The position numbers were made by a program, and so were the translations under genes. A model generated the notes under the pieces. It saw only the letters and a program-made list of their open reading frames with translations. It was not told the DNA's origin and searched no databases. This document shows, piece by piece, positions 12,412 through 53,200 of a stretch of 64,000 bases of DNA; within the stretch, counting starts at the first letter, position 1; each line of letters starts with the position of its first letter. Source of the DNA: Cherax quadricarinatus (taxonomy: Eukaryota; Arthropoda; Malacostraca; Decapoda; Parastacidae). The DNA lies in NCBI RefSeq assembly GCF_038502225.1, contig NW_027195244.1, positions 62,001 through 126,000 on the forward strand. The letters are read 5' to 3'.

Positions 12412-12685
12412 TGTGATTTTTTTAATCTCAGGATTTGCAAAGAGAAATTTTCCACCAAAGTCAACGAGTCAAAAAAGAAATTACATTCGCCATAACTCAT
12501 TCAATAGCTATCTTACCACAAGCATTTCCCACAAGCATTTCCACATTACTCATTCATATATCTTGTGAGAAATATTTTACAATAAGGAAGGTTGAACCAT
12601 AGATAGAAACACATTCACTCTTAATGATTCAATAATTGTCGTGTAGGAAGTTTTCTCACTTACGAGTAAGGAAAAAATAAAATAC
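12412..12685. repeat. Old ~78-bp tandem repeat, degenerate block 1
   Basis: Diverged units of the same family as 16,181-17,060 and 22,600-23,365. Recurring words are AGAAACACATTCAC, CACTCATTCAATAGCTGTCT, AGAAATGTTTCCCA and AAGGTAGAGTGAGCCA, in that order. This block leads directly into the 74-bp array. Confidence 0.65.
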
Positions 12686-28425: not shown

Positions 28426-29437
<1,012 letters not shown>

Positions 29438-30268
29438 TTACGGTCCTGCTGGACACATTAACACATCACACTTACGGTCCTGCTGGACACATTAACACAT
29501 CACACTTACGGTCCTGCTGGACACATTAACACATCACACTTACGGTCCTGCTGGACACATTAACACATCACACTTACGGTCCTGCTGGACACATTAACAC
29601 ATCACACTTACGGTCCTGCTGGACACATTAACACATCACACTTACGGTCCTGCTGGACTGGACACATTAACACATCACACTTACGGTCCTGCTGGACACA
29701 TTAACACATCACACTTACGGTCCTGCTGGACACATTAACACATCACACTTACGGTCCTGCTGGACACATTAACACATCACACTTACGGTCCTGCTGGACA
29801 CATTAACACATCACACTTACGGTCCTGCTGGACACATTAACACATCACACTTACGGTCCTGCTGGACACATTAACACATCACACTTACGGTCCTGCTGGA
29901 CACATTAACACATCACACTTACGGTCCTGCTGGACACATTAACACATCACACTTACGGTCCTGCTGGACACATTAACACATCACACTTACGGTCCTGCTG
30001 GACACATTAACACATCACACTTACGGTCCTGCTGGACGGTCCTGCTGGACATTAACACATCACACTTACGGTCCTGCTGGACACATTAACACATCACACT
30101 TACGGTCCTGCTGGACACATTAACACATCACACTTACGGTCCTGCTGGACACATTAACACATCACACTTACGGTCCTGCTGGACACATTAACACATCACA
30201 CTTACGGTCCTGCTGGACACATTAACACATCACACTTACGGTCCTGCTGGACACATTAACACATCACA
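29438..30268. repeat. 34-bp minisatellite
   Basis: About 24 almost identical units of 34 bp, each with CGGTCCTGCTGGACACATTA then ACACATCACACTTA. Two irregular units: 5 extra bases (GGACT) at about 29,655, and a slipped unit at about 30,030 where GGTCCTGCTGGAC is doubled. Near identity implies recent expansion or homogenisation. Confidence 0.97.
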
Positions 30269-31080
30269 CTTACGTTCATCCACATCTACTTCCCGACTTA
30301 CAATCTATGTGACTTACGTCCATCAACATCTACTTCCCGACTTACAATCTATGTGACTTACGTCCATCAACATCTACTTCCCGACTTACAATCTATGTGA
30401 CTTATGTCCATCAACATCTACTTCCCGACTTACAATCTATGTGACTTACGTCCATCAACATCTACTTCCCGACTTACAATCTATGTGACTTACGTCCATC
30501 CACATCTACTTCCCGACTTACAATCTATGTGACTTACGTCCATCAACATCTACTTCCCGACTTACAATCTATGTGACTTACGTCCATCCACATCTACTTC
30601 CCGACTTACAATCTATGTGACTTACGTCCATCCACATCTACTTCCCGACTTACAATCTATGTGACTTACGTCCATCCACATCTACTTCCCGACTTACAAT
30701 CTATGTGACTTACGTCCATCCACATCTACTTCCCGACTTACAATCTATGTGACTTACGTCCATCCACATCTACTTCCAGACTTACAATCTATGTGACTTA
30801 CGTCCATCCACATCTACTTCCCGACTTACAATCTATGTGACTTACGTCCATCCACATCTACTTCCCGACTTACAATCTATGTGACTTACGTCCATCCACA
30901 TCTACTTCCCGACTTACAATCTATGTGACTTACGTCCATCAACATCTACTTCCAGACTTACAATCTATGTGACTTACGTCCATCCACATCTACTTCCCGA
31001 CTTACAATCTATGTGACTTACGTCCATCCACATCTACTTCCCGACTTACAATCTATGTGACTTACGTCCATTAACATCTA
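30269..31080. repeat. 44-bp minisatellite
   Basis: Exactly 18 periods of 44 bp between the first CTTACG (30,269) and the last (31,061). Each unit contains CTTACGTCCATCCACATCTA and TTCCCGACTTACAATCTATG. Variants: ATCAACATC versus ATCCACATC, and CCAGAC in two units. It abuts the 34-bp array at a shared CACTTACG, with no spacer. Confidence 0.97.
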
Positions 31081-31173
31081 CCACCCAAAAAATGCCATAG
31101 AAGTTAGAAAAATAAAAACTATAAATGTACGTAAAAATATAAATTACTCTTGGTGATACGTTTTTGAATTTTG

Positions 31174-31275
31174 AATGGAAGCAATTAACCAACGAAGATT
31201 TAACCCAACTACAACAAGAAAGAGTTGAGGAGGAAGAAAGAAGGAAAGTGGAAGAAGAGGAGACGCAGAGGCTCA
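31174..31275 (+). pseudogene. Tigger/pogo-type transposase C-terminal remnant
   Basis: In one frame: WKQLTNEDLTQLQQERVEEE followed by ERRKVEEEETQRLTV, then a TAG. The LTNE-D/E-L...E..R..EEE acidic stretch followed by a (F/L)TVKGLAE-type helix is characteristic of the C-terminal region of Tigger/TIGD-type DDE transposases (pogo group of Tc1/mariner). Only about 35 codons are recognisable, with no DDE core, inverted repeats or start. The frame stops exactly at the first unit of the 27-bp minisatellite. An acidic low-complexity peptide could match other families by chance, so confidence is moderate. Confidence 0.55.
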
Positions 31276-31611
31276 CTGTATAGAGGTTGCCAAGTGTTTT
31301 CACTGTACAGGGGTTTCCACTGTATAGAGGTTGCCACTGTATAGGTGTTGCCAAGTGTTTTTACTGTATAGGGGTTGCCAAGTGTTTTCACTGTATAGGG
31401 GTTGCCAAGTGTTTTCACTGTATAGGGGTTGCCAAGTGTTTTCACTGTATAGGGGTTGCCAAGTGTTTTCACTGTACAGGGGTTGCTAAGTGTTTTCACT
31501 GTATAGGGGTTGCCAAGTGTTTTCACTGTATAGAGGTTGCTAAGTGTTTTCACTGTATAGGGGTTGGTAAGTGTTTTCACTGTATAGAAGTTGCTAAGTG
31601 TTTTCACTAAA
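31276..31611. repeat. 27-bp minisatellite, left block (TTGCC variant)
   Basis: About 12 units resembling the main array but with GGTTGCCAAG or GGTTGCTAAG where the main array has GGTTACCAAG. They are more variable (TAGAGG, ACAGGGG, TAGGTG) and include partial units near 31,310-31,350. The block ends at TTTTCACTAAATAAC where PLE 2 starts. Confidence 0.9.
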
Positions 31612-31681
31612 TAACAAAAAAAGGCACAATACCGTGACTGGAATGACACACAAACAACCTGCACATAGAAGAGAGGAGCTT

Positions 31682-31720
31682 ACGACGACGTTTCGGTCCG
31701 ACTTGGACCATTTTCAAAGT
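31682..31720 (-). ncRNA. Candidate hammerhead-like core in left PLE terminus
   Basis: On the minus strand: TTTGAAAAT, then a hairpin GGTCC-AAGTC-GGACC, then GAAAC and GTCGTC. The GAAA box and stem II fit the hammerhead layout known from PLE terminal repeats, but the CUGANGA box is poorly matched. The inverted copy at about 32,905-32,940 has GATAC in place of GAAAC. Probably an inactive relic. Confidence 0.35.
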
Positions 31721-31773
31721 CACACTAACGAGAAGTGGAGCAGGATGGGTATATATAGGCAGGAAGAGGTAGT

Positions 31774-31805
31774 GGTGGTGGTGGTAGTAGTAGTAATAGT
31801 AGTAA

Positions 31806-31862
<57 letters not shown>

Positions 31863-31875
31863 TGGTAGTAGTAGT
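31774..31875. repeat. GTA/GTG trinucleotide microsatellite in left PLE terminus
   Basis: About 100 bp of GTG and GTA triplets. Poly-Val and poly-Tyr frames here are artefacts. Confidence 0.95.
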
Positions 31876-31914
31876 GGGGAATTAAGGAGGAGGAGGAGCC
31901 AGTCAAATACAAAG

Positions 31915-32505
31915 ATTAATAATGAAAAAACAGAATCACAAGACAGAAGAAAGAAAGACAACCCTTTCCATTTCATAGACTCTTCCCTCTCACGTGCTAA
32001 ACATAATTTCTTCTCTCCCAAACTCTCTACTCCTGGGAACTCTTCTGTCCTCTGCCTTCCCTACATTTCCGGTCTTTCTAATCTCAACAATTCTCTCCGT
32101 CCCTTAGACATCAAGCTTACTTTCCGCCAGACTAACACTCTTCGCACTAATCTCGTTCATACCTCTCCTCCCTCTACAGATGTTCCTGGTGTCTACTCTA
32201 TTTCTTGCTCTTCCTGTCCTCTTCAATACTTTGGAGAAACTGGTCGATCTCTTTCTGACAGACTTAGTGAGCATAAAAATAGTGTTATGCTTGCCGACAC
32301 TAATAATGCTCTGTTCTGTCACGTCAGAGATCATAGCCATCCTATTGACTGGTCTTCTGCTAAAACTGTCTTCCCTTCTTCCAACTTTAACAGTCGCCGT
32401 CTGGTTGAATCTTCCCTAATACACAATTTTCCTTGTATGAATTTTAGTCCTGGCTTCGTCTCTGTAGATGCTTACAGACTTCAGAACACCCTTGACTTAA
32501 CCTGA
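31915..32505 (+). pseudogene. Penelope C-terminal region with GIY-YIG endonuclease
   Basis: A continuous frame without stops from the inner edge of the left terminus to TGA 32,503-32,505. It contains NPFHFIDSSLSRAKHNFF, VLCLPYISGLSNLNNSL and IKLTFRQTNTLRTNLVHT, the PLE linker between RT and endonuclease. Then comes GVYSISCSSCPLQYFGETGR (G-x-Y, CxxC insert, YFG), catalytic Arg in DRLSEHKNSV, NALFCHVRDHSHPIDW, and Glu in RRLVESSLIH. All expected catalytic positions are present and the frame is intact, but no RT and no good start codon remain. It is a 5'-truncated copy, diverged from remnant 1 and from a different PLE family. Confidence 0.85.
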
Positions 32506-32744
32506 TTCCTCCTTTTTTCTTCTTCTTTTTCTTCTTCTCCCTCTTCCCCTTTCCTCTTTCCTTTTTTCTTTTCTCTTATGGGTTGTCTTTCTTTCTTCTG
32601 TCTTGTGTTTCTGTTTTTTCATTATTTATTTCATTACCTACCCTCCCCCCACCTCTGTGTACTTGCTCTCCGTCTGTGGGCACCTAGGTCCCTTACAGTG
32701 CTCCCCTTTCTTTGTATTTGACTGGCTCCTCCTCCTCGTTAATT

Positions 32745-32771
32745 CCCCACTACTACTACCACTACCACTAT

Positions 32772-32837
<66 letters not shown>

Positions 32838-32850
32838 AACCACCACCACC
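32745..32850. repeat. TAC/CAC trinucleotide microsatellite in right PLE terminus
   Basis: The inverted counterpart of the GTA microsatellite at 31,774-31,875. Confidence 0.95.
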
Positions 32851-32945
32851 ACTACCTCTTCCTGCCTATATATACCCGTCCTGCTCCACTTCTCGTTAGT
32901 GTAACTTTGTAAATGGTCCAAGTCGGACCGATACGTGCGGTTCGT

Positions 32946-35900
32946 GTGTGTTTTCACTGTATAGGGGTTACCAAGTGTTTTCACTGTATAGGGGTTACCA
33001 AGTGTTTTCACTGTATAGGGGTTACCAAGTGTTTTCACTGTATAGGGGTTACCAAGTGTTTTCACTGTATAGGGGTTACCAAGTGTTTTCACTGTATAGG
33101 GGTTACCAAGTGTTTTCACTGTATAGGGGTTACCAAGTGTTTTCACTGTATAGGGGTTACCAAGTGTTTTCACTGTATAGGGGTTACCAAGTGTTTTCAC
33201 TGTATAGGGGTTACCAAGGTTTTCACTGTTACCAAGTGTTTTCACTGTATAGGGGTTACCAAGTGTATTACCAAGTGTTTTCACTGTATAGGGGTTACCA
33301 AGTGTTTTCACTGTATAGGGGTTACCAAGTGTTTTCACTGTATAGGGGTTACCAAGTGTTTTCACTGTATAGGGGTTACCAAGTGTTTTCACTGTATAGG
33401 GGTTACCAAGGGTTACCAAGTGTTTTCACTGTATAGGGGTTACCAAGTGTTTTCACTGTATAGGGGTTACCAAGTGTTTTCACTGTATAGGGGTTACAAA
33501 GTGTTTTCACTGTATAGGGGTTACCAAGTGTTTTCACTGTATAGGGGTTACCAAGTGTTTTCTCTGTATAGGGGTTATGAAGTGTTTTCACTGTATAGAG
33601 GTTACCAAGTGTTTTCACTGTATAGGGGTTACCAAGTGTTTTCACTGTATAGGGGTTACCAAGTGTTTTCACTGTATAGGGGTTACCAAGTGTTTTCACT
33701 GTATAGGGGTTACCAAGTGTTTTCACTGTATAGGGGTTACCAAGTGTTTTCACTGTATAGGGGTTACCAAGTGTTTTCACTGTATAGGGGTTACCAAGTG
33801 TTTTCACTGTATAGGGGTTACCAAGTGTTTTCACTGTATAGGGGTTATGAAGTGTTTTCACTGGGGTTACCAAGTGTTTTCACTGTATAGGGGTTACCAA
33901 GTGTTTTCACTGTATAGGGGTTACCAAGTGTTTTCACTGTATAGGGGTTACCAAGTGTTTTCACTGTATAGGGGTTACCAAGTGTTTTCACTGTATAGGG
34001 GTTACCAAGTGTTTTCACTGTATAGGGGTTACCAAGTGTTTTCACTGTATAGGGGTTACCAAGTGTTTTCACTGTATAGGGGTTACCAAGTGTTTTCACT
34101 GTATAGGGGTTACCAAGTGTTTTCACTGTTTTCACTGTATAGGGGTTACCAAGTGTTTTCACTGTATAGGGGTTACCAAGTGTTTTCACTGTATAGGGGG
34201 TTACCAAGTGTTTTCACTGTATAGGGGTTACCAATTACCAAGTGTTTTCACTGTATAGGGGTTACCAAGTGTTTTCACTGTATAGGGGTTACCAAGTGTT
34301 TTCACTGTATAGGGGTTACCAAGTGTTTTCACTGTATAGGGGTTACCAAGTGTTTTCACTGTATAGGGGTTACCAAGTGTTTTCACTGTATAGGGGTTAC
34401 CAAGTGTTTTCACTGTATAGGGGTTACCAAGTGTTTTCACTGTATAGGGGTTACCAAGTGTTTTCACTGTATAGGGGTTACCAAGTGTTTTCACTGTATA
34501 GGGGTTACCAAGTGTTTTCACTGTATAGGGGTTACCAAGTGTTTTCACATATATGGGTTACCAAGTGTTTTCACTGTATAGGGGTAACCAAGTGTTTTCA
34601 CTGTATAGGGGTTACCAAGTGTTTTCACTGTATAGGGGTTACCAAGTGTTTTCACTGTATAGGGGTTACCAAGTGTTTTCACTGTATAGGGGTTACCAAG
34701 TGTTTTCACTGTATAGGGGTTACCAAGTGTTTTCACTGTATAGGGGTTACCAAGTGTTTTCACTGTATAGGGGTTACCAAGTGTTTTCACTGTATAGGGC
34801 TTAGTAATTGTGTTTTCACTGTATAGGGGTTACCAAGTGTTTTCACTGTATAGGGGTTACCAAGTGTTTTCACTGTATAGGGGTTACCAAGTGTTTTCAC
34901 TGTATAGGGGTTACCAAGTGTTTTCACTGTATAGGGGTTACCAAGTGTTTTCACTGTATAGGGGTTACCAAGTGTTTTCACTGTATAGGGGTTACCAAGT
35001 GTTTTCACTGTATAGGGGTTACCAAGTGTTTTCACTGTATAGGGGTTACCAAGTGTTTTCACTGTATAGGGGTTACCAAGTGTTTTCACTGTATAGGGGT
35101 TACCAAGTGTTTTCACTGTATAGGGGTTACCAAGTGTTTTCACTGTATAGGGGTTACCAAGTGTTTTCACTGTATAGGGGTTACCAAGTGTTTTCACTGT
35201 ATAGGGGTTACCAAGTGTTTTCACTGTATAGGGGTTACCAAGTGTTTTCACTGTATAGGGGTTACCAAGTGTTTTCACTGTATAGGGGTTACCAAGTGTT
35301 TTCACTGTATAGGGGTTACCAAGTGTTTTCACTGTATAGGGGTTACCAAGTGTTTTCACTGTATAGGGGTTACCAAGTGTTTTCACTGTATATATTGGTT
35401 AATATGTGTTTTCCCTGTATAGGGGTTCCAAGTGTTTTCACTGTATAGGGGTTACCAAGCGTTTTCACTCTATAGGGGTTACCAAGTGTTTTCACTGTAT
35501 AGGGGTTACCAAGTGTTTTCACTGTATAGGGGTTACCAAGTGTTTTCACTGTACCAAGTGTTTTCACTGGGGTTACCAAGTGTTTTCACTGTATAGGGGT
35601 TACCAAGTGTTTTCACTGTATAGGGGTTACCAAGTGTTTTCACTGTATAGGGGTTACCAAGTGTTTTCACTGTATAGGGGTTACCAAGTGTTTTCACTGT
35701 ATAGGGGTTACCAAGTGGTTACCAAGTGTTTTCACTGTATAGGGGTTACCAAGTGTTTTCACTGTTTTCACTGTATAGGGGTTACCAAGTGTTTTCACTG
35801 TATAAGGGTTACCAAGTGTTTTCACTGTATAGGGGTTACCAAGTGTTTTCACTGTATAGGGGTTACAAAGTGTTTTCACTGTATAGATTTTACCAAGTGT

Positions 35901-38900
35901 TTTCACTGTGTAGGGGTTACCAAGTGTTTTCACTGTATAGGGGTTACCAAGTGTTTTCACTGTATAGGGTTTACCAAGTGTTTTCACTGTATAGGGGTTA
36001 CCAAGTGTTTTCACTGTATAGGGGTTACCAAGTGTTTTCACTGTATAGGGGTTACCAAGTTTTTTCACTGTATAGGGGTTACCAAGTGTTTTCACTGTAT
36101 AGGGGTTACCAAGTGTTTTCACTGTATAGGGGTTACCAAGTGTTTTCACTGTATAGGGGTTACTGTATAGGGGTTACCAAGTGTTTTCACTGTATAGGGG
36201 TTACCAAGTGTTTTCACTGTATAGGGGTTACCAAGTGTTTTCACTGTATAGGGGTTACCAAGTTTTTTCACTGTATAGGGGTTACCAAGTGTTTTCACTG
36301 TATAGGGGTTACCAAGTGTTTTCACTGTATAGGGGTTACCAAGTGTTTTCACTGTATAGGGGTTACCAAGTGTTTTCACTGTATAGGGGTTACCAAGTGT
36401 TTTCACTGTATAGGGGGTTACCAAGTGTTTTCACTGTATAGGGGTTACCAAGTGGGGTGTTTTACCAAGTGTTTTCACTGTATAGGGTTTACCAAGTGTT
36501 TTCACTGTATAGGGGTTACCAAGTGTTTTCACTGTATAGGGGTTACCAAGTGTTTTCACTGTATAGGGGTAACCAAGTGTTTTCACTGTACAGGGGTTAC
36601 CAAGTGTTTTCACTGTATAGGGGGTTACCAAGTGTTTTCACTGTATAGGGGTTACCAAGTGTTTTCACTGTATAGGGGTTACCAAGTGTTTTCACTGTAT
36701 AGGGGTTACCAAGTGTTTTCACTGTATAGGGGTTACCAAGTGTATAGGGGTTACCAAGTGTTTTCACTGTATAGGGGTTACCAAGTGTTTTCACTGTTTA
36801 GGGGTTACCAAGTGTTTTCACTGTATAGGGGTTACCAAGTGTTTTCACTGTATAGGGGTTACCAAGTGTTTTCACTGTATAGGGGTTACCAAGTGTTTTC
36901 ACTGTATAGGGGTTACCAAGTGTTTTCACTGTATAGGGGTTACCAAGTGTTTTCACTGTATAGGGGTTACCAAGTGTTTTCACTGTATAGGGGTTACCAA
37001 GTGTTTTCACTGTATAGGGGTTACCAAGTGTTTTCACTGTATAGGGGTTACCAAGTGTTTTCACTGTATAGGGGTTACCAAGTGTTTTCACTGTATAGGG
37101 GTTACCAAGTGTTTTCACTGTATAGGGGTTACCAAGTGTTTTCACTGTATAGGGGTTACCAAGTGTTTTCACTGTATAGGGGTTACCAAGTGTTTTCACT
37201 GTATAGGGGGTTACCAAGTGTTTTCACTGTATAGGGGTTACCAAGTGTTTTCACTGTATAGGGGTTACCAAGTTTTTTCACTGTACCAAGTGTTTTCACT
37301 GGGGTTACCAAGTGTTTTCACTGTATAGGGGTTACCAAGTGTTTTCACTGTATAGGGGTTACCAAGTGTTTTCACTGTATAGGGGTTACCAAGTGTTTTC
37401 ACTGTATAGGGGTTACCAAGTGTTTTCACTGTATAGGGGTTACCAAGTGTTTTCACTGTATAGGGGTTACCAAGTGTTTTCACTGTATAGGGGTTACCAA
37501 GTGTTTTCACTGTATAGGGGTTACCAAGTGTTTTCACTGTATAGGGGTTACCAAGTGTTTTCACTGTATAGGGGTTACCAAGTGTTTTCACTGTATAGGG
37601 GTTACCAAGTGTTTTCACACAAGTGTTTTCACTGTATGTTACCAAGTGTTTTCACTGGGGTTACCAAGTGTTTTCACTGTATTTTACCAACTGTATAGGG
37701 GTTACCAAGTGTTTTCACTGTATAGGGGTTACCAAGTGTTTTCACTGTATAGGGGTTACCAAGTGTTTTCACTGTATAGGGGTTACCAAGGGTTACCAAG
37801 TGTTTTCACTGTATAGGGGTTACCAAGTGTTTTCACTGTATAGGGGTTACCAAGTGTTTTCACTGTATAGGGGTTACCAAGTGTTTTCACTGTATAGGGG
37901 TTACCAAGTGTTTTCACTGTATAGGGGTTACCAAGTGTTTTCACTGTATAGGGGTTACCAAGTGTTTTCACTGTATAGGGGTTACCAAGTGTTTTCACTG
38001 TATAGGGGTTACCAAGTGTTTTCACTGTATAGGGGTTACCAAGTGTTTTCACTGTATAGGGGTTACCAAGTGTTTTCACTGTATAGGGGTTACCAAGTGT
38101 TTTCACTGTATAGGGGTTACCAAGTGTTTTCACTGTATAGGGGTTACCAAGTGTTTTCACTGTATAGGGGTTACCAAGTGTTTTCACTGTATAGGGGTTA
38201 CCAAGTGTTTTCACTGTATAGGGGTTACCAAGTGTTTTCACTGTATAGGGGTTACCAAGTGTTTTCACTGTATAGGGGTTACCAAGTGTTTTCACTGTAT
38301 AGGGGTTACCAAGTGTTTTCACTGTATAGGGGTTACCAAGTGTTTTCTCTGTATAGGGCTTACCAAGTGTTTTCACTGTAAGGGTTACCAAGTGTTTTCA
38401 CTGTATAGGGGTTACCAAGTGTTTTCACTGTATTGTGGTTACCAAGTGTTTTCACTGTATAGGGGTTACCAAGTGTTTTCACTGTATAGGGGTTACCAAG
38501 TGTTTTCACTGTATAGGGGTTACCAAGTGTTTTCACTGTATAGGGGTTACCAAGTGTTTTCACTGTATAGGGGTTACCAAGTGTTTTCACTGTATAGGGG
38601 TTACCAAGTGTTTTCACTGTATAGGGGTTACCAAGTGTTTTCACTGTATAGGGGTTACCAAGTGTTTTCACTGTATAGGGGTTACCAAGTGTTTTCACTG
38701 TATAGGGGTTACCAAGTGTTTTCACTGTATAGGGGTTACCAAGTGTTTTCACTGTATAGGGGTTACCAAGTGTTTTCACTGTATAGGGGTTACCAAGTGT
38801 TTTCACTGTATAGGGGTTACCAAGTGTTTTCACTGTATAGGGGTTACCAAGTGTTTTCACTGTATAGGGGTTACCAAGTGTTTTCACTGTATAGGGGTTA

Positions 38901-41264
38901 CCAAGTGTTTTCACTGTATAGGGGTTACCAAGTACCAAGTGTTTTCACTGTATAGGGGTTACCAAGTGTTTTCACTGTATAGGGGTTACCAAGTGTTTTC
39001 ACTGTATAGGGGTTACCAAGTGTTTTCACTGTATAGGGGTTACCAAGTGTTTTCACTGTATAGGGGTTACCAAGTGTTTTCACTGTATAGGGGTTACCAA
39101 GTGTTTTCACTGTATAGGGGTTACCAAGTGTTTACACTGTATAGGGGTTACCAAGTGTTTTTGCTGGATAGGGGTTACCAAGTGTTTTCACTGTATAGGG
39201 GTTACCAAGTGTTTTCACTGTATAGGGGTTACCAAGTGTTTTCACTGTATAGGGGTTACCAAGTGTTTTCACTGTATAGGGGTTACCAAGTGTTTTCACT
39301 GTATAGGGGTTACCAAGTGTTTTCACTGTATAGGGGTTACCAAGTGTTTTCACTGTATAGGGGTTACCAAGTGTTTTCACTGTATAGGGGTTACCAAGTG
39401 TTTTCACTGTATAGGGGTTACCAAGTGTTTTCACTGTATAGGGGTTACCAAGTGTTTTCACTGTATAGGGGTTACCAAGTGTTTTCACTGTATAGGGGTT
39501 ACCAAGTGTTTTCACTGTATAGGGGTTACCAAGTGTTTTCACTGTATAGGGGTTGTTTTCACTGTATAGGGGTTACCAAGTGTTTTCACTGTATAGGGGT
39601 TACCAAGTGTTTTCACTGTATAGGGGTTACCAAGTGTTTTCACTGTATAGGGGTTACCAAGTGTTTTCACTGTATAGGGGTTACCAAGTGTTTTCACTGT
39701 ATAGGGGTTACCAAGTGTTTCAACTGTATAGGGGTTACCAAGTGTTTTCACTGTATAGGGGTTACCAAGTGTTTTCACTGTATATGGGTTACCAAGTGTT
39801 TTCACTGTATAGGGGTTACCAAGTGTTTTCACTGTATAGGGGTTACCAAGTGTTTTCACTGTATAGGGGTTACCAAGTGTTTTCACTGTATAGGGGTTAC
39901 CAAGTGTTTTCACTGTATAGGGGTTACCAAGTGTTTTCACTGTATAGGGGTTACCAAGTGTTTTCACTGTATAGGGGTTACCAACCAAGTGTTTTCACTG
40001 TATAGGGGTTACCAAGTGTTTTCACTGTATAGGGGTTACCAAGTGTTTTCACTGTATTTACCAACTGTATAGGGGTTACCAAGTGTTTTCACTGTATAGG
40101 GGTTACCAAGTGTTTTCACTGTATAGGGGTTACCAAGTGTTTTCACTGTATAGGGGTTACCAAGTGTTTTCACTGTATAGGGGTTACCAAGTGTTTTCAC
40201 TGTATAGGGGTTACCAAGTGTTTTCACTGTATAGGGGTTACCAAGTGGGGTTACCAAGTGTTTTCACTGTATAGGGGTTACCAAGTGTTTTCACTGTATA
40301 GGGGTTACCAAGTGTTTTCACTGTATAGGGGTTACCAAGTGTTTTCACTGTATAGGGGTTACCAAGTGTTTTCACTGTATAGGGGTGTTTTTACTGTATA
40401 GGGGTTACCAAGTGTTTTCACTGTATAGGGGTTACCAAGTGTTTTCACTGTATAGGGGTTACCAAGTGTTTTCACTGTATAGGGGTTACCAAGTGTTTTC
40501 ACTGTATAGGGGTTACCAAGTGTTTTCACTGTATAGGGGTTACCAAGTGTTTTCACTGTATAGGGGTTACCAAGTGTTTTCACCACTGTATAGGGGTTAC
40601 CAAGTGTTTTCACTGTATAGGGGTTACCAAGTGTTTTCACTGTATAGGGGTTACCAAGTGTTTTCACTGTATAGGGGTTACCAAGTGTTTTCACTGTATA
40701 GGGGTTACCAAGTGTTTTCACTGTATAGGGGTTACCAAGTGTTTTCACTGTATAGGGGTTACCAAGTGTTTTCACTGTATAGGGTTACCAAGTGTTTTCA
40801 CTGTATAGGGGTTACCAAGTGTTTTCACTGTATAGGGGTTACCAAGTGTTTTCACTGTATAGGGGTTACCAAGTGTTTTCACTGTATAGGGGTTACCAAG
40901 TGTTTTCACTGTATAGGGGTTACCAAGTGTTTTCACTGTATAGGGGTTACCAAGTGTTTTCACTGCATAGGGGTTACCAAGTGTTTTCACTGTATAGGGG
41001 TTACCAAGTGTTTTCACTGTATAGGGGTTACCAAGTGTTTTCACTGTATAGGGGTTACCAAGTGTTTTCACTGCATAGGGGTTACCAAGTGTTTTCACTG
41101 TATAGGGGTTACCAAGTGTTTTCACCAAGTGTTTTCACTGTATAGGGGTTACCAAGTGTTTTCACTGTATAGGGGTTACCAAGTGTTTTCACTGTATAGG
41201 GGTTACCAAGTGTTTTCACTGTATAGAGGTTACCAAGTGTTTTCACTGCATAGGGGTTACCAAG
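32946..41264. repeat. 27-bp minisatellite, homogeneous core
   Basis: About 8.3 kb, or about 305 units of 27 bp: TTTTCACTGTATAGGGG followed by TTACCAAGTG. Almost every unit is identical. Departures are mainly isolated partial units joined at short matching words (about 33,222, 33,285, 33,410, 34,125, 34,232, 35,548, 35,712, 36,455, 37,285, 37,615-37,690, 38,935, 39,553, 40,245, 40,386, 41,123) and rare substitutions (TACAGGGG, CTGCATAG). Because 27 is 9 codons, three of six frames stay open for hundreds of codons (VFSLYRGYQ, CFHCIGVTK and minus-strand GNPYTVKTL repeats). These have no start context, domain or codon bias and are not genes. Confidence 0.97.
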
Positions 41265-44200
41265 TGTTTGTAGGGGTTAGGGCTACCAAGGTTTTCCACT
41301 GGTATAGGGTTACCAAGGTCACTTGCACCAGGGGTTTACCAAGCGTTTTGCACCGTAGGGTTAGGCACCAAGCATTTTCACCCGTAAGAATGGTTACCAA
41401 GCGTTTTCAACTTGCATAGGGGCTTACCGCAAGGTTTTCACCTGTATCAGGTTACCAAGCGTTTCACTGCATAGGGTTACCAAGCGTTTCAACTTGCATA
41501 GGGTTCACCGCGGATGTTCTCACCAGATAGGGGTTACCAAGGTCACGCCAAGTAGGGTTTCACCGTATGGAGCCTTAACTGCCATAGGGGTTTTACACAC
41601 GTTTTCACCATAGGGGTTACCGAAAGGTTTTCACCTGCATAGGGGCTTACCCAAGGTTTTCAATCCTGTATAGGGGCTTAACCACGTTTTCACCTGTATA
41701 GGGGTTACCAATGGTATTCACCACTGTATAGGGTTTTCAAGCTTAGTTTTCAACCTTCCATAGGGGTTACTCCAAGTGTCACCTGTATAGGGGTTACCAA
41801 GGTATTTTCAATTGCATAGGGGTTACCAAGTGTGATTCACCCTGTATAGGGGTTTACCAAGCGTTTTCACTGTATTAGGGTTACTGCTTGTTCTTTTCAC
41901 TGAATAGGTGGGGTTAACCAAGTGTTTTCAACTTGTATAGGGGTTACCAAGTGGTTTTCAACTTGCATAGGTTTACTCCAAGGTGTATAATTGCATAGGG
42001 TTTCCATTGTTTCTCACCTCGCATAGGGGTTACCAATGCTAAGCCACCAGAGTCGGTTACCAAGCCACTATATGGGTTACCAAGGTTACCAAGGTTTTCA
42101 CCTGGCATTAGGGGTTAACCAAGTAGTTTTCACCGTACAGGGGTTAGGGCTACCAAGGTGTTTTCACTGCATAGGGGTTACCAAGCAAGTTTCTCCACCG
42201 TATAGGGGTTACCAAGTGGTTTTCACCTGTATAGGGGTTACAAAGCAGTTTTTCGCACTGCACAGGGGCTTACCAAAGCGCTTTTCACTGCATAGGGTTA
42301 ACAAGCCAAGGTTTCTCACCCGTCATAGGGGTTTACAAAGTGGGCGTTTCGCTGCATAGGGGTTCACCAAGCGTTTTCACCTGTATAGGGTTCACCAAGG
42401 CATTTCACTGCAGAGGGTTCCAAGGTCAATTGCCATAGGGGTTACCAAGGGGTTTTCACTGAACAGGCCACCAAGGTCACTGCATAGGGTCTTCACTTTC
42501 CAAGCGTTTTCAATTAAGAAGCTACCAACTGTCACTGGGTTATAGGGTTACCTGTTTTCACTTGCATAGGGTTACCAAGGTTTCCAATTTGCATAGGGCT
42601 TCACTCCAAGAGCCTTTCACCGCATAGGGGTCACCAAGCGTTTCGCTGCTAAGGGCTACCAAGGTTTCCAATTGCATAGGGCCTACTCCAAGAGCTCACA
42701 ATTGCATAGGTGGTTAACCAAGCTGAATCTCAATTGCATAGGGGTTACCAAGCTGTCTTTCTAATTGTCTGCATAGGGGCCACTGGGCTTATTTTCCACT
42801 GAATAGGCGTTACCAAGTGTTTCCCACTGTATAGGGGTTACCAAGTGGTTTTCACTGTATAGGGTTCACCAAGGTATCCACCTGTATAGGGCTACCGAGT
42901 GTTTCTCACTTGCATAGGGGCTTACCAATGGCTTTTCCAATATAGGGGAAGCCACCTAAGGCATTTCACTGCATAGGGGTTACCAAGCTGCCTTTTCCGT
43001 ATAGGGCCTTCACCAAGTACTGACTGCTGGGCTACCAATGTCTTTTTCACTGCATAGGTTCACTCGCCTACTATCACTGCATTAGGGGCTGGTTACCGAA
43101 GGTTTCTAATTGCATAGGGCTTACCAAGCGTTTTCACCTCGCATAGGGGCTTACCAAAGTACGTTTTCACCTGCATAGGGCCACCAAGGTTTTGGTTTTG
43201 CACCTGAAGGGTCTACCAAGTGGTTTCAACTTGCATAGGGTCACCAAGGTGCTCAACTTGTGCATAGGGGTTACCAAAGTGCTTTTCACCTGCATAGGGG
43301 TTACTGCCAAGGCCTTTTCACTGTATAGGGGTTACCAAGTGGTTTTCACTGTATAGGGGTTACCAAGGCATTTTCACCTGTACAGGGGCTTACCAAGAGT
43401 TTTCAATTGCCCATAGGGGCTTACCGAAGTGTTTTCACCTGCATAGGGCCTACCAAGCTGTTTTCACTGTATAGGGGTCCATACTCAAGTGTATCCACTG
43501 CATAGGGTTTAACCAAGCGGTTTTCAACTTGCATAGGGGCTTACCAAGGCAAGTTTTCCAACTTGCAATAGGGGTAACCACTAGCTTTCAACCGTATAGG
43601 GGTTACCTACGTTTTCAACCGTACAGGGGTTACCAAGCTAGTTTTCACCGTATTAGGGGTTACCAAGCGTTTTCAACCCGCATAGGGGTTACCAATGGAT
43701 TTCACAATTGCATAAGTGGGTTACCAAGCCAGCCGTATTAAGGGCTACCAAGGTCTTATACCGGGGTTACCCAAGGGGTTACCGCGTTTTCTCCAGGTAT
43801 AGGGGCTTACCGGGCTGCTTTTCAATTGCATAAGGGGTTACCGAAGGTTTTCAACTGCATAGGGGTTACCGAAGGTTTTCACCTGCATAGGGGCAATCCG
43901 GAAGGTTTTCAACAGATAGGAGGGTTACCAAGCTGCATTTCAACTTGGTATAGGGGTTACCAAGCGTATTCAACTTGGTATAGGGGCTTTACCAAGTGTT
44001 TTCACTTTATAGGGGTTGTTACCAAGTGCTTTTCACTGCATAGTGGTTACCAAGCTAAGTTTTCCACAGCATAGGGGCTTACCAAGCGTTTTCACTGTAT
44101 TAGGGTTAACCAACTGGTTTTCACTGTATAGGGGTTACCAAGTGTTTCACTGTAGAGGATTTTACCAATGCATTTTCACTGTATTAGGGTTACCAAGGTT

Positions 44201-47200
44201 TTCACTGTATAGGGGTTACTATGTGATCAATTGCATAGGGGATTGCTTCAACTGTTTTCAACTTGTGCAGCGGGGTTTACAAAGCTGTTTTCAACTTGCA
44301 TAGGGGTTGCCACCAAGCTGCTTTCACTGTATGTTAACGGTTACTCCAAGTAGTTTTCCAATTGTATTAGGGTTACCGTCAAGTTGCATAGGGCTACCAA
44401 GCGTTTTCGCCATAGGGGTTACCAAGTGTTTTCACTGCATAGGGTTACCATGGCGGTTTTCAACTTGTGATTAGAGGGGTTACCAAGGCCTTTTCAACCT
44501 GGGCATAGGGGTTAGCAAGTGTTTCAATTGCATAGAGATTACCAAGGTTTTCCACTTGTATAGGGGTTACCATGCGTTTCAACCGCATAGGGGTTCACCA
44601 AGCGTTTTCACTGCATAGGGGTTTACCTAAGTGTTTTCAACTTGCATAGGGGTTTACCGCGGTTTTCTTCAATTGGCTAGGGTTTTCAACGTTGTTTCCA
44701 GATAGGGGTTACCAAGTGTTTTCACAGCATAGGGGCTTACCGCTGTTTTCAATTGCATATGGGTTACCAAACGGTCTTCAATTGCATAGGGTTACCAAGC
44801 GTTTTACCAATTGTATAGGGATTTATCAAGTGTCACTGTATCAGGCTTACCAAGTAAGGTTTTCAATTGCATAGGGGTTACCAAGTGTTTTCAACTTATT
44901 ATAAGGGGTTACCAAAGTGTTTTCACTGTATAGGGTTACTCCAAGCTGTTTTCAATTGCATGGAGGGGTTACCGCGTTTCTACCAAGCATAGGGTTAATA
45001 AGGGGCCACTTGCACCAGGGGTTACCAAGATTTCACTCGCACAGGGGTTACCTTAAGTGGTTTTCAATTGCATAGAGGGGTTACCAAGGTATTTTCAACT
45101 TGCACAGGGGTAACTTAACCAAGGTTTTCAGCATAGGGGTTACCAAGGGGTTTCAACCGCATAGGTTTTACCAAGCGTCAATTCATAGGGGTTACCAAGG
45201 TATACCAAGTAGGGGTTTACCAAGGTTTTCAATTGCATAGGGGTTACTCCAATTGGTTTTCACTGGGTATAGGGGTTACCAAGTATTTTCCTGCAATTGC
45301 ATAGGTTAACTCAAGGTCTTTCCACCCTGTATAGGGGTTACCAAAGCGTTTTTCACCTGCATAGGGGTTACCAACCGTTTCACCGTATAGGCCACTTACC
45401 AAGCGTTTTCAATTCGCATAGTTGGGGTTACCAAGCGATTTTCACCTGCATAGGGGTTACCAAGGTCACTGTTATCGGGCTACCAAGTATCCACAGGGGT
45501 TACCCAAGCGTTTTCAACCGCAATAGGGGTTACCAAGCGTTTTCAACCGTTAGATGAGGTTACCAAGGCATTTCACCGCATAGGGGTTACCGTTTTCAAT
45601 TGCATAGGGGTTACCAAGGTGACAATTGTATAGGGGTTACCAAGTAGTTTTCAACGTTATAGGGGTTACCAAGCGTTTTCACTGGTATAGGGGTTACCAA
45701 GTGTTTTCAACTTGCATAGGGGTTAACTCCGCGTTTTCTCCAATTAGGGGCAACCAAGTAGGTTTTCACCGTATAGGGGTTACCAAGGTTTTCAATTGCA
45801 TAGGTTACCATGGTTTTCACCATTGGATTGGGGCAACCGGTTTTCACTGTATAGGGGTTACCTTAAGTGTTTCCATAGTAGGTAATGGTTTTCACTATAT
45901 TACCGCGGGAGCTTTTCAATTGCATAGGGGTTACCAAGTGGTTTTCACTGCATAGGGGCTTATCCAAGGTTTTCAATTGGCATAGGGGTTACCAAAGTGT
46001 TTTCACTATATAGGGGTTACCAACGCGTTTTCAATTGGTATAGGGGTTACCATGTTTTCTAATTGTACAGGAGTTTTAACCGCGTCACCGTATTAGGTTA
46101 ACCGGGCGTTTTCACTGTATAGGGGTTTTACCAAGCGTCACTGTGGTTAGGCCAAAGCGCTTTTCAATTCGCATAGGGGTTACCAAGGTTTTCAACCGTG
46201 TTACATTGGGGTTTACCAAGGTTTTCCAATTCGTATTAGGGTTTTACCAAGTAACTCAATTGCACAGGGTTACCATGTTTCACTGCATAGGGGTTACCAA
46301 GGTTTCCACTGCATAGGGTAACCGGGTTTCTCTAATTGCACAGGGGTTACCAAGTGTTTCAATTTGCATATGGGTTACCAAGCGTCACCGGGGTATAGGA
46401 GCTACCAATTGGTTTTCCACCAGCATAGGGGTTACCAAGCGTTTTCCCTGCATAGGGGTTTGCCACAAGTCTCTTTCATCTGTATAGGGGTTACCAAGGT
46501 TTTTACTGGGTATAGGGGTTTTCAACAAGTGTCACTAGGGCATTAGGGGCCAAGGTTTTCTGTACTAGGTTACCAAGGGGCATTTCTTCACTGCCATAGG
46601 TTACCAAGTGTTTTCACTGCATAGATGTTACCAAGGGTTTTCACCTGTATTGGGGTTACCAAGTGTTTTCAATGCATAGTGGTTAACCAAGGTTTTCACA
46701 GCATAGGCTGGGGCTTACCAAGGTTTTCAATCTGCATATGGGGTTTACCATAGCTCTACCATGCTAGGGCCTACCAAGGGGGTTTTCATCTGCAAGGGGT
46801 TTTTACCAAGTGTTTTCACCTAGGGGTATTAGCCAATAAGGCTTTCACTGCATAGGGTTACCAGTGTTTTCACTGTATAGGGGATGGGTTCACAAGGTCA
46901 CCGTGTAAGGGGTTTGCACTGCCTTCACCCCACCAGGGGCTACCGCAGGCCACCGTTGAGGCCACCAAGGTCACCACAGGGGTCACTGGGCGTTTCTCAC
47001 CTGTATAGCCTGGCCTTCACCGCATAGGGGTTTCACTGCTGCTTTCCCACCTGTATAGGGGTTCACAAGTGTCTTCTCCATAGGGGTTACCAAGGTTTTC
47101 ACCGTATAGGGGTTACCAAGGTTTTCATTACAGAGGTTGCCACCAAGGTTTTCCAATTGTATAGGGTTTAGCAAGCCGTTTCACCAGATTAGAGGATTTC

Positions 47201-50200
47201 ACCTTTTAAGGTCTTTTCACTGTATAGGAGTTACCATATTCACTGGGGTTACCAAGGGGTTATCGCGTTTTCTGCACCAGTAATAGGCCACCTAAGTGGT
47301 TTTCAATTGCCATAGGGGTTAACTTCCTAAGGGGCTTCTTCACCAAGCATAGGGTTTTACCAAGGTTTTCAATTGTATAGGGGTTACCAAGGTTTTCTGA
47401 CCTCACCAGGGGCTTCAAGTAGGTTTTCTTACCTATGTATTAAGTTACCAAGTGTTTTCACTGCATAGGGGTTTTTACCAAGTGTTTTCACTGCATAGGG
47501 TTACCAAGTGGTTTTCAATTGCCATAAGGGGTTACTATGACAATTGTATAGGGGTTACTTCAAGGTTTTCAACCAAGCATAGGTTTTACCACATTTTCCA
47601 ATTGCATAGGGCTTTACCCTAAGTGGTTTCACTGCATAGGTTACCAAGTTGGGGTTTTCACCTTATAGGGTTAACTGCTGGTTTTCACTGCACAGGGTTA
47701 GGTTACCAAGTTGGTTTACAGTATAGGGGCTGCCAAGGGTTTTCACCTGTATAAGGGGTTACCAATTTCTCACCTGTATAGGCCACAAGTGTTTTTACTG
47801 GATACTCCAAGTGTTTCACCTGTATAGGGGTTAACAAGTTAAGCCACTGTAGTTTTACAGCCTGTCAACAGTATAGATGGGGTTACCATGTTTTCACTGT
47901 GCAGGTTAAGGTGCCTGTTTCACTGCATAGGCTACCAAGGCTCACTGTATAATGGCTTACCAAGTGGGGTTTTCACCTGTATACTTACCGCCGTTTTCAC
48001 CGTTAGGCCACCAAGGTTTTCTCTGTATAGGGTTACCAAGGGGTTTCAATTGCCATAAGGTTACCAAGGGTTTCTTCACCTGTATAGAGGTCATCATGGC
48101 TCTCACTGATAGGGGGTTAGGGCAAGTGTTTTCACTGTATGAGATCACCAAGGGTTTCAATCCGTAAAGGTCATGCTTTTCACTGTAGGGGTTACCAAGT
48201 GTTTCAATTGTATAGGGTTACCAAGGTTTTCAATTGGGATAGCTTACCAAGGTTTCACCTGTATGTGGAGTTACCATGGTCAATTGGGGTATAGGGCCTA
48301 CCGTTGCCTTCTCTTCCACTGTATAGGGGCTTACCAAGGTTTCAACTTGTATAGGTTACCAAGGTTTTCAATTGCCAAGGCGTGTTTACCACACCTGCAT
48401 AGGGCAACGTTGTTTGTTCGTATAGGGATTCTCACCTAAGCGGTTTTCAATTTGCATTAGGTTTTAACGGGGTTGTTTTCAATTACAGGGTCATCGCGGG
48501 GTTTCTTACCATAAGGGCCACCTGCGTTTTCAATTGTATAGGGGTTACCAACTGTTTTCACACCAGAAAACATGGTTTTCACAGCCATAGGGGCTAATAT
48601 GTTTCACCCGTATAGGCTAATGGGGCATCAATCCGTATGGGGCTACCAAGGTTTCCACCTGTATAGAGGTCACTACATTTTCACTGCCATAAGTGTGGTT
48701 TACCAATGCTTTCAAAGCATAGGGGGTTACCAAGGTTTTCCAATTGGTATAAGGGGTTACCAAGGTTTCACCTTTATAGGGTTACCAAGGTTTTTTAACA
48801 TAGGGGTTAACCAATGGTTTCTCACTGTATAGGGTTACCAAGGTTTTCACTGTATAGGGGTTACCAAGTGTTTTCTAATTGTATAAGGATGCCAACTGCT
48901 TAAGCCTCACTGTGTAGGGGTTACCAAAGTGGGTTTCCACTGTAATTAGGTTACCAAGTGTCATTGGGTGGGTAGAGGTTACCAAGTGGCTTTCACCTGC
49001 ATAGGGTTCTTACCTTTTTAAGTTGCTTTCACTGTATAGGGGTTACCTCAAGGTCACCTGTAATGTAAGGCCTATTCCCATGCTTTCCTGTATAGGGTTA
49101 CCAAGCGTTTTCAATTGCATAAGGGGTTACTTCAAGGTTTTCCACCTGCAGAGGTTACCGGGCATTTTCAATTGCCATAGGGTTTTTACCAAGGTCAATT
49201 GTATTAGGGGTTACCAAGGTTTTGAACTGTATAGGTTTACCAACTAGGTCAACATAGGGGCCTACCAAGGTCAAGCACTGTATAGCTACCATGTCAATTG
49301 TACAGGGGTTACTGCTTTCCAGATAGGGTTGACCAAGTGTTTTCAACTTGCATAGGCGGCTTACCAAGTGTTTTCACTCGTATAGGCACCAAGGTTTCAC
49401 CTGCATTGGGGTTACCAAGGGTTTTCAATTGCATAGGGCCACCATTGGCTCCATAGCCATAGGGGTTGGTTTTTAAGTAAGGTTTTCACCATAGGTTGAC
49501 TAAGGGCTTCAAAATTGCATAGGGGTTTACCAAGGTTTCCTCAATTGCATAGGGGTTACTGCTGCTTTCACTGTATAGGGGTTAACCAAGGTTTTCACTG
49601 TATAGGGGTTACCAAGTGGTTTTCACCTGCCCATAGGATAACCAAGGTTTCTAACTGTATAGTTACCAAGGTTTTCACTGTATAGGGGTTACCAAAGTTG
49701 TTTTCCACTGCATAGGGGTCACCAAGTTTCACTGTGTATAGGCTTACCAAGCAAGCACCATGCCATATTGTTACCAAGCTGCTTTCACTGTATAGGGATT
49801 ACCAAGGTTTTCACTGTATAGGGGTATCAAGTTTCACTGCATAGGGGTACCAAGTGTTTTCTAATTGCCATAGGGTTCCACAATATAGGGGTTACCAAGG
49901 TTTTCACTGTATGAGGTTTTCTTCCACAGGGGTCACTTCACAGTATAGGGTTAACCAAGTGGTTTCACTGTATAGGGTTCCAAGGTGCCTAAGCCACTGT
50001 ATAGCTACTGTTTTCATTGCAGGGGGTTACCAAGCGTTTTCAATTGTATAGGGGTTACAAGTTGCTTTCTAATTAGGGGTATAGGGGTTACTGCCTCTTC
50101 AATGCCATTAGTTACTACCAATGCTTTTCTAATTGCATAGGGTTACCAAGGTCTTCTCAACTTGCATAGGGGCTTACCAAGTGGTTTTCACTGCATAGGG

Positions 50201-53200
50201 GTTACCAAGCGTTTCTTCAATTGGTACAGGGTTCACTCCAAGTGTTTTCAACTTGCATAGGGGTTACCAAGCGTTTCTCTAATTGGCATAGGGTTACCAA
50301 GGTTTTCACTGTATAGGGTTACCAAGCCAAGTCACCTACATAGGTTACCAAGGTTTCACCTGCATAGGGGCTTACCGAGCGTCAACTGTATAGGCCACCA
50401 AGGTTTTCACTGCATAGGGGTTTACTGTCACTGTATAGGTTAAATGCTGTCAACTTGTATAGGGGTTACCAAGGTTTCCTTTTTCCACTGTATAGGCTTA
50501 CCAAGCAGTTTCTTCAATTGCATAAGGGCTACCAAGGTTTTCACTGCATAAGGTTCACCAAGTCTCCCACTGTATGGGGTAATTACCAAGTGTTTTCACT
50601 GTATAGGGTTACCAAGGTCTTCTCAATTGCACCAAGGGGTTACCATGTTCTCAATTGCATAGGGGTTACCAAGGGTTTTCACTGTACCAGTTACCAAGGT
50701 TTTCACTGCATAGGGGTTACCATGGGGTTTTAACTGCATAGAGGTTAACCGGTTTTCACTGCATAGGGTTACTTGGGGCTTAGTTTCATTGTATAGGGGT
50801 TTACCAAGGTTTCACTGTATAGGGCAACTTGTCTTTCACTCAGTAGGGGTTACCAAGTGTTTTCACTGTGTAGAGGTTACCAAGGGTCACTGTATAGGGG
50901 TTACCAAGTGTTTTCACAGCACAGGGGTTATGAAGTTGTTTTCACTGTATAGGGGTTAACCAAGGTTTTCTCTGTATAGGGGTTACCAAGTGTTTTCAAT
51001 TGTATAGGGGTTACAAGTTTCTTTTACTGCATAGGGGTTACCAAGGTGTTTTCAATTGCATAGGGGTTACCAATGTTTCTCAATTGTATAGGTTACCAAG
51101 GTTTTCAATTGTATAGGGTTACCAAGGTTTTCAATTGCATAGGGTTACCAAGGTTTTAACTATACTGTTACCAAGGTTTTCTACTGCATAGGTTACCAAG
51201 TGTTTTCACATAGGGGTCCACGCCTTCATATTAGGGGTTACCAAGTGTTTTCACGTGCTTACTACCAAGGTTTCACCGCCATAGGGGTTTACCATGTTTT
51301 CATTATAGGGGGTTACCAAGTGTTTTCACTGTATAGGGTTACCCTCGCTGACTGTATAGGGGTTACCAAAGTGTTTTCACTGTATAGGGTTACCAAGGTT
51401 TTCACTGTATAGGGGTTTACAAGGTTTTCAACCACAATTACCTGTTTTCAATTGTATAGGGGTTACCAAGGTTTCCACTGTATAGGGGTTACCAAGTGTT
51501 TTCTTACATAGGGTTACCAAGGTTTCACCTGCATAGGGGTTACTAAGTTATTTTCCTGTATAGGGCTTGTCACTGTATATGGGGGTTACCAAGTTTTCAC
51601 TGTATAGGGGTTACCAAGTTTTCACTGTATAGGGGCAAGGTTACCAAGTAGTTTTCACTGCAATCATAGGGGTTACTGCGTTTTCACCTTGTATAGGGTA
51701 CCAAGGTATTTCACTGCATAGGGTAGGGCTACCAAGGTTTTCACTGTATAGGGGTACTAAGCTGTTTCAATGCATAGGGTTCCACCAAGTTTTCACTGTA
51801 TTGGGGTTACCAAGTGTTTTCACCTGATAGGGGTTACCAAGGTTTCACCTGTATACTGGGCTCCAAGGTTTTCACTGTATAGGGGTTACCAAGTGTTTTC
51901 ACTGCATAGGGGTTACCAAGGTCTTTCACTGATAGGGGTTACCAAGAAGTCTTCAACTGTATAGGGGTTACAAGTGTTTTCACCTCAATGTATAGGGTTT
52001 CAATTGTATTTCACCAAGTATAGGGGTTCCAAGGCTCACATGGGGTTACACTGTAGGGTTACAAGTGTTTTCTGCCATATTGGTTACCGTTGCACTGCAT
52101 AGGGGCTTACCAAGTGTTTCAATGTATAGGGTTACTGCTGTTTTCCTTCACCTATAGGGGTTACCAAGGTTTTCAATTGCATTACTGGTTAAGCACTGTA
52201 TAGGGGTTACTTCAAGTTTAACTCCCTGTATAGGGGCTACCAAGGTTTCACCTTGTATACCGTTGTCTCCACCTGTCTACCAAGCATAGGGCTACCTGGC
52301 AAGCTTCACTGTATAGGGGTTACCAAGGTTTCACTGTATAGGGCTTCATGTTTCAACCGTATAGGGGTTACCAACTGTTTCATGTATAGGGGTTACCAAG
52401 GTTTCAACAATTGTATAGGCTACATTGCAAAGGTTACTTCAAGCATAGTTATAAGTTGTCAACTGTACTGGGGTTACCAAGTTGCCGTCACTGTATTAGG
52501 GGTTACACTGCTAGGTTCAACTGTATAGGGGCTTTACTTAAGGCTTTCCAATTGTATAGGGTTACCAAGGTTTTCAACTTGTATAGGGTTACCAATGTTT
52601 TCCACTGTATAGGGGTTACCAAGGTTTTCAATTGCATAGGGTACCAAGGTTTCACTGCATAGGATTACCAAGGTTTTCAATTGCATAGGGTTAACAAGCC
52701 AAGTTTTCACCTGTATAGGGGTTTCACATGCTGCCTCTTCACTCGTAATATTACCAAGGCTTTCACTGTAGGGGTTCCAACCAGATAGGGGTTGTTACTA
52801 AGGGTTTTCACTGCATAGGGGTTACCAAGGTTTTCACTGCATAGGGGTTACCAAGGTGTTTCACCTGTATTGGGGTTACCAAGGTGTTTCAATTCATAGT
52901 TTAGGGGTCATGTAACTGTTTTCAATTGTATAGGGGTTACCTACCTTTCACTGTATAGGGTTACCAAGTGTTTTCACTGTATTAGGGGTTACCAAGGTTT
53001 TCACTGTATAGGGGTTACCAAGGTTTCAACACTGTTATAGGCTTACTAAGTGTTTTCAACTGTATAGGTTACCAAGTCAATGTATAGGGGCCACAAGGCT
53101 TTAATGTATGGGGACCTATTTACCAAGTAAGTTTCACTGCATAGGGTTACCAAGTGCTCTTCACCTGCATAGGGGTTACCAAGGTCTCAAATTTCACTGT

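Follow-up and report, generated by a model that had tools for sequence, protein, structure and literature searches.

The stretch analyzed here (hereafter the window: 64,000 nucleotides, C318:62001-126000 of the 3.95-Gb assembly of the crayfish Cherax quadricarinatus) contains a satellite with a 27-bp unit that starts at the end of a coding remnant of a dead transposon of the Tigger type; to the left of this remnant lie a short spacer, an array with a 44-bp unit and an array with a 34-bp unit (Table 1). The subject of this work is the origin of the 27-bp and 44-bp satellites and the relationship of both to the transposon. The open frame at 31176-31280, WKQLTNEDLTQLQQERVEEEERRKVEEEETQRLTV, ends at a TAG (31281-31283) that lies inside the first 27-bp unit, as stated in a preliminary description of this DNA, which also assigned the frame to a Tigger-type transposase and regarded it as the founder edge of the satellite.

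A genome search with positions 31174-31611 (219 matches, 35 candidates scored) identifies, among the matches listed and besides the window itself, a single place that spans nearly the whole query (1-435 of 438, 86% identity), on contig C43. The order of features in C43 is that of C318, i.e., the 34-bp array, the 44-bp array, the spacer, the Tigger edge and the 27-bp array. The window remnant recurs there with 87% identity over 38 residues, as VEWKQLNNEGLIQLQQERVEEEERRKVEEEETQRFTV followed by a stop, and passes into a 27-bp array, mostly of the TTGCC type (see below), with the same first unit and the same 17-bp second unit as in the window. Recurring beside a 27-bp array in C43, in a version that can be aligned to a full-length Tigger protein, the fragment is not a chance frame. 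Two other matches were considered as relatives and rejected: the one on C61 belongs to a 30-bp satellite (L014:4142-4983) that shares TTTCACTGTATA but has no match to the Tigger flanks in the surrounding 10 kb, and the one on C3 to a different, 26-bp satellite.

The right Tigger edge of the C318 array lies outside the window, after C318:141568, so that a Tigger edge is found on both sides of the array. To the right of the array, C318 and C43 have 175 bp in common (88% identity), which read in one frame as NMNQNVRRFAKVDR-stop-IQNVLKSNRLIFEDKTRQTLHLQTYD in C318 and as LADLLNIDQNNQRFA-stop-VDKQIQNVLKCCRQIYEDKTRQTVHLQTYD in C43. Matching transposon flanks thus enclose the 27-bp array on both sides in C318 and in C43, and on neither side in C157, the third contig with this satellite. 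A protein-database search with a shorter frame gave no match. The search with a piece of a satellite-free relative, C72, detects four proteins with E <= 0.1 among 25 candidates, namely P0001 (579 amino acids; PF03184, DDE_1, PF03221, HTH_Tnp_Tc5, and PF04218, CENP-B_N; E 1.2e-8), P0002 (tigger transposable element-derived protein 1-like from Macrobrachium nipponense; E 2e-6), P0003 (PF03184 and PF03221; E 2.3e-4) and P0004 (PF03184 and PF03221; E 8.6e-4; named COX assembly protein homolog in the source). Pfam searches with the 38-39 amino acid window fragment, the 43-amino acid piece of a second satellite-free relative, C2, and the 59-amino acid C72 piece detect no domain, and the identification as Tigger rests on the protein-database search, not on Pfam.

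In the alignments to P0001 (E-values computed for six short subjects), residues 451-493 match the left flank of the C43 array (E 9e-7) and residues 507-547 its right flank (E 8e-9), from which it follows that the array sits on residues 494-506 (AKGLSDSFSQLNK, 13 residues). C72 aligns to residues 151-223 and 495-569, and C2 to residues 457-549 and 428-451 (E 0.011). This alignment to a protein that combines CENP-B_N/HTH_Tnp_Tc5 with DDE_1 identifies the source element as Tigger/pogo-like, and the window frame, through its C43 counterpart, as part of the C-terminal region of a Tigger transposase; the N-terminal domains are not seen in the C72, C2 and C43 copies, all of which are fragments.

Table 1. 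Positions of the arrays and transposon remnants in the window
Feature	Window positions	Strand	Remark
34-bp tandem array, host DNA left of the Tigger element	29438..30274	+	Present in C157 and C43 too
44-bp tandem array, 18.5 copies, probably from the TA-flanked 5' terminus of a Tigger-family transposon	30268..31081	+	
Subterminal spacer of the transposon, from the 44-bp array to the coding remnant	31082..31160	+	Present at 11 other loci too
C-terminal coding remnant of the Tigger transposase (acidic stretch, ends ..TQRLTV)	31161..31280	+	C43 orthologue aligns to P0001
Left 27-bp array, TTGCC type (apparently the older), two 17-bp short units included	31273..31608	+	
Retroelement copy bearing GIY-YIG (Penelope-like by eye), splits the 27-bp array	31609..32947	+	Pfam and end sequences
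Clean right block of the 27-bp array, TTACC type (apparently derived)	32948..41000	+	
27-bp array continuing in error-rich sequence, on past the window to C318:141568	41001..64000	+	

Satellite-free relatives and the probable seed of the 27-bp unit

At the DNA level, the stretch 31082-31280 has matches at 14 places, i.e., C318, C43, C2 (80% identity over the coding remnant) and 11 loci that match the spacer only. The search started with the C2 tail identifies, besides C2 itself, C72 (79%), among 40 scored of 727 candidates; in the remaining 38 scored matches, the likeness is limited to some 70 bases at one query end. The right flank of the C318 array finds C318, C43 and C72 (three of three candidates); C2 is absent from these matches and is 70% identical to that flank when compared directly. 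At the site of the array, each of the two relatives has one unit-like segment, FSVKGSARVFF in C2 (DNA TTCAGTGTAAAGGGGTCGGCAAGAGTGTTTT) and IKGLAKVFSLMN in C72 (KGLAKVF; DNA TAAAAGGGTTGGCAAAAGTGTTTTCTCT). The unit aligns to C2 as TTCACTGTATAGGGGTTGCCA--AGTGTTTT over TTCAGTGTAAAGGGGTCGGCAAGAGTGTTTT, is 2 bp shorter and has TAG in place of a lysine codon, in line with the prediction from the window of a TVKGLAKVF-type ancestor, next to the acidic stretch, that exceeds the unit by a couple of bases. As C2 has AAG and C72 AAA at this place, the window TAG is an altered lysine codon and does not mark where the gene ends.

The likeness was compared with several backgrounds. None of 6994 overlapping background windows, taken from the window and four fetched stretches, reaches the score of the C2 seed. 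Among 5000 dinucleotide shuffles of each seed, the score is reached by 2 (C2) and 0 (C72) against the TTGCC unit, by 5 and 3 against the TTACC unit, and by 12 and 2 against the first unit of the array. When the C43 flanks are joined with 0, 1, 2 or 3 units, the alignment to C2 scores 84, 109.5, 104 and 95, respectively, and none of 2000 shuffled units placed between the flanks reaches the one-unit score. The unit is present singly in the transposon family while it is tandem in the array.

The comparison was extended by a search with P0001, in which 75 of 52,445 first-look candidates were scored and 76 matches were listed. The C-terminal part of 16 of these matches was compared; 15 cover the array site and one, L056, stops short of it. 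Among these, only L044 is more like the unit than shuffled sequence would be (2 of 200). Long open frames free of stops occur in many of the 76 listed matches; the genome is rich in Tigger.

Tigger belongs to the superfamily that gave rise to CENP-B, and the preliminary description saw in this a reason to follow up a transposase-derived satellite, which hints at a centromere link. The core of the CENP-B box is TTCGNNNNANNCGGG. The 27-bp unit agrees with it in seven of nine bases, with two mismatches (TTCACTGTATAGGGG), and thus lacks the box; a centromere role on the basis of this fit was rejected, given that one repeated sequence amounts to one coincidence, and the hint has no support.

The 44-bp satellite and the transposon end

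Alignment of the 11 spacer loci (L020-L030) to the window shows, in ten of them (all except L025), a single 44-bp-like segment that abuts the spacer on its left; the likeness among the loci stops at the outer end of this segment. Taking these ten loci together with C2, the outer end is CAGATCC or near it, and TA directly precedes it in nine of the 11. An inverted end of the ..GGATCTG type is recognized in six of 11 copies (scores 13-16), each followed by TA, and in the other five no 3' inverted end is recognized (scores 6-9); the elements with a recognized 3' end are 260 to 1451 bp long. The source element accordingly has inverted terminal repeats and a TA target site. In ten of the 11 cases, every one of 300 shuffles scores lower than the terminus itself. 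In C2, the terminus lies 1.2 kb upstream of the coding remnant on the same strand, so that both seeds are present in this one copy; the spacer behind the C2 terminus aligns poorly to the window, and the weak match to P0001 residues 428-451 lies about 90 bp behind the terminus. The 44-bp array itself opens with the terminus in the related segments (..CTA followed by CAGGTCC in C43 and by CAGATCC in C157). Judged from these alignments, the 44-bp satellite probably derives from the 5' terminus of the same Tigger family. At window 30230-30330, the 34-bp and 44-bp arrays appear by eye to be fused at a shared CTTACG; at this fusion, roughly 100 bp and the transposon terminus, which are kept in C43 and C157, are absent.

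Unit types and related segments

The preliminary description distinguished TTGCC units on the left from TTACC units in the large right block, and unit counts bear this out: GGGGTTACC occurs 269 times and GGGGTTGCC not once in 32941-41000, and the respective counts in the left array are zero and five. Among the 296 units cut from 32930-41100, 230 are identical. The retroelement lies between the old TTGCC units and the TTACC block in C318; its GIY-YIG match (Pfam E 8e-4, 20.1 bits) is below the cut-off of 22.6. TTGCC units occur in C43 and along the left edge of C318, and TTACC units in the C318 and C157 blocks; at the variant position, the seeds have TTGGC (C72) and TCGGC (C2). The evidence from C43, the left edge and the seeds strongly suggests that TTGCC is the older unit type and TTACC a derived one that spread later in C318 and C157.

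In 11 sampled 500-base windows from about 42950 to 63450, array mismatches average about 9% (6-11%), with indels in addition; T>C is the commonest change counted in the error-rich region (727), followed by C>T (192). Array matches listed within C318:126001-138000 are about 70-82% identical. Sampling showed clean sequence in the first 6.5 kb of the right block and in the final 500 bases sampled (C318:141001-141500). The error-rich stretch extends from window position 41001 to about C318:140600, with both ends of the array clean. This part of the array is most simply uncorrected long-read sequence, and the length of the array is therefore uncertain. The claim that the satellite exceeds 30 kb stands as a length in the assembly, with the reservation that errors are heavy from about 41000 onward.

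The three contigs differ in which array is long. The 27-bp array measures about 48 kb in C318 (counting the retroelement) against about 0.77 kb in C43, and the 44-bp array 0.8 kb in C318 against about 23 kb in C43; in C157, a 44-bp array passes directly into a TTACC-type 27-bp array of about 2.8 kb, and the sequence adjoining the right end of that array shows no match to the right side of C43. C43, C157 and C318 are collinear over their left-hand flanks (blocks 78-100% identical, mostly 83-95%), so that these segments are either paralogs or alleles that have diverged, with different arrays growing or shrinking in them.

Several arrays and a frame elsewhere in the window were also recorded. A 74-bp minisatellite with seven copies occupies 12684-13206; C43 matches this place once, without a 74-bp array, which is another possible single-copy ancestral state. 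Between 12684 and 16179, 74-, 32- and 17-bp tandem arrays stand nearly side by side. The open reading frame at 28881-29243 (minus strand) appears by eye to encode another GIY-YIG (Penelope-like) endonuclease.

Origin of the satellites and known parallels

Taken together, these observations make it very probable that one dead, internally deleted Tigger copy seeded two unrelated satellites, with 27-bp and 44-bp units. The 34-bp array lies outside the element. The array-bearing copy is best regarded as an internally deleted Tigger; the deletion would have brought the 5' end close to the C-terminal part of the transposase gene. A 44-bp stretch at the 5' terminus would have been duplicated in tandem to yield the 44-bp satellite, and the 27-bp satellite would come from a stretch of about 29 bp within the transposase coding sequence (F-T/S-V-K-G-L/S-A-K/R-V-F) that lost 2 bp. 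The segment exists as no fewer than three paralogs or alleles (C43, C157 and C318), and the arrays that grew or shrank differ among them, with the TTACC variant presumably spreading in C318 and C157. The 27-bp seed is bounded by TTCACTG (C43) or CTCACTG (window) on the left and by TTCTCT (C318, C43 and C72) or TTCTAA (C2) on the right, i.e., by a short imperfect direct repeat at about the spacing of the unit, and the distant copy L044 has TTTTTTCACTGATA at the homologous place. The first 27-bp duplication probably came about when such short direct repeats (TTC-n-CT, at both ends of the seed) slipped or recombined, and the array may have grown later by unequal exchange or replication slippage. 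The founder edges of the 27-bp array, the single-copy states at both seeds and the three related segments are directly visible, and the earlier proposal that a segment of a dead transposase gene was the seed of the 27-bp satellite is supported by the seeds in C2 and C72 and by the flanks on both sides.

Several results weigh against this origin. C72 supports the 27-bp seed less than C2 does: nine of the 6994 background windows reach its seed score, the C43 flanks with 0 to 3 units score 64, 66.5, 66.5 and 66.5 against it, 24 of 2000 trials with shuffled units attain the score for one unit, and it lacks the upstream coding stretch of the remnant; C2, for its part, is heavily decayed. Among the distant Tigger copies that cover the site, 12 of 15 do not resemble the unit, and L042 and L043, which align at the homologous place, do so within chance (46 and 51 of 200 shuffles). 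These 16 compared copies are of more distant subfamilies and limit rather than contradict the seed result. The window's own left flank has no match to three of the proteins at E 1, and the right flank of C318 no valid match at E 1 (the only one is spurious, on the other strand); because of this, the tie of the C318 flanks to the Tigger protein runs through C43. Furthermore, the C157 array has no Tigger edge on either side, no 3' terminus turns up past the right end of the array in either C318 or C43, or downstream in C2, and L026 fails the shuffle test for the 44-bp segment, with its near-twin L028 only just passing.

The principal alternative, that a Tigger copy captured, or received by insertion, a 27-bp satellite that already existed and that resembles the coding sequence by chance, is compatible with the 34-bp array that adjoins outside the element and with C72 being weak evidence for seeding on its own. 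It is nevertheless very improbable: a single unit best restores co-linearity with C2 (84 to 109.5), the seed stands at the expected place in both satellite-free relatives, and, among the matches to the window fragment that were listed, the strong ones all fall in C318, C157 and C43, and the weaker matches, on C3 and C61, are other satellites. The case that contradicts capture, a satellite-free relative with a unit-like segment within its coding sequence, was found.

The proposal that only the 27-bp satellite is Tigger-derived, the 44-bp one being a host satellite whose likeness to a transposon end has another cause, draws on the borderline L026 and L028 and on the poorly aligning C2 spacer. 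The 44-bp segment is, however, the terminus itself, together with the same spacer, in ten dispersed copies, TA stands at nine of 11 5' junctions and after each of the six recognized 3' ends, and the Tigger copy C2 also carries this terminus, which leaves the host-satellite explanation very improbable. That the long 27-bp array is an assembly artefact, as its large error-rich middle part with the T>C bias might suggest, is extremely improbable, given the clean array ends and the separate arrays on C43 and C157; the doubt is limited to the length. Thus, seeding of both satellites by one Tigger copy is the preferred explanation.

The origins of satellites are usually lost because arrays overwrite their own beginnings. 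In this case, the source gene, the seed, edges on two sides, older and younger unit types and three segments can be read in one genome, and the first steps in the birth of a satellite become testable, including the starting repeats, the bases lost and which array wins. A more general and rather unlikely extension is that dead pogo/Tigger copies are repeated sources of satellites, with one copy here giving two unrelated satellites from separate seeds. If so, some feature of such dead copies (short internal direct repeats, heterochromatin or breaks at the ends made by the transposase) would start tandem growth; in view of the very large number of Tigger candidates in this genome, further satellites in it may share this origin, and some might serve CENP-B-like proteins.

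Reviews list satellites from transposon ends and from coding parts (PMC9659126, PMC12628747). A literature search combining Tigger with satellite terms showed, in the text covered, no satellite from Tigger coding sequence, which is not proof of absence, and by word search the main text of a crayfish satellitome paper (PMC13130569) does not mention Tigger. In Xenopus miDNA4 (Scalvenzi and Pollet; PMC12628747), a miniature inverted-repeat transposable element (MITE) of the Tc1/mariner type likewise occurs with a single unit or with variable arrays, and short flanking direct repeats were similarly proposed as the cause; there, the MITE was believed to have captured a tandem repeat, whereas the seeds described here are transposase coding sequence and a terminus. 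In Tetris TIR-220 of Drosophila virilis (PMC4079207), the terminal region of a DNA transposon also supplied the satellite units, but the repeats are inside the terminal repeats and part of a mobile family, whereas the relatives examined here carry one unit. In Chenopodium, the satellite CficCl-61-40 derives from about 40 bp of the tnp2 transposase domain of the CACTA-like Jozin, and its arrays are likewise associated with transposase remnants (PMC7320549); that case concerns a CACTA-like element in plants and one reported seed, in contrast to a pogo/Tigger element in an animal genome, with Tigger sequence flanking the array left and right and the element end as the source of a second satellite. 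Among the systems compared, Chenopodium is the nearest known case overall, and Tetris the nearest for element ends. Satellites from transposons, including transposase coding sequence, are known; the animal case described here is unusual in how well it is resolved and has a double origin.
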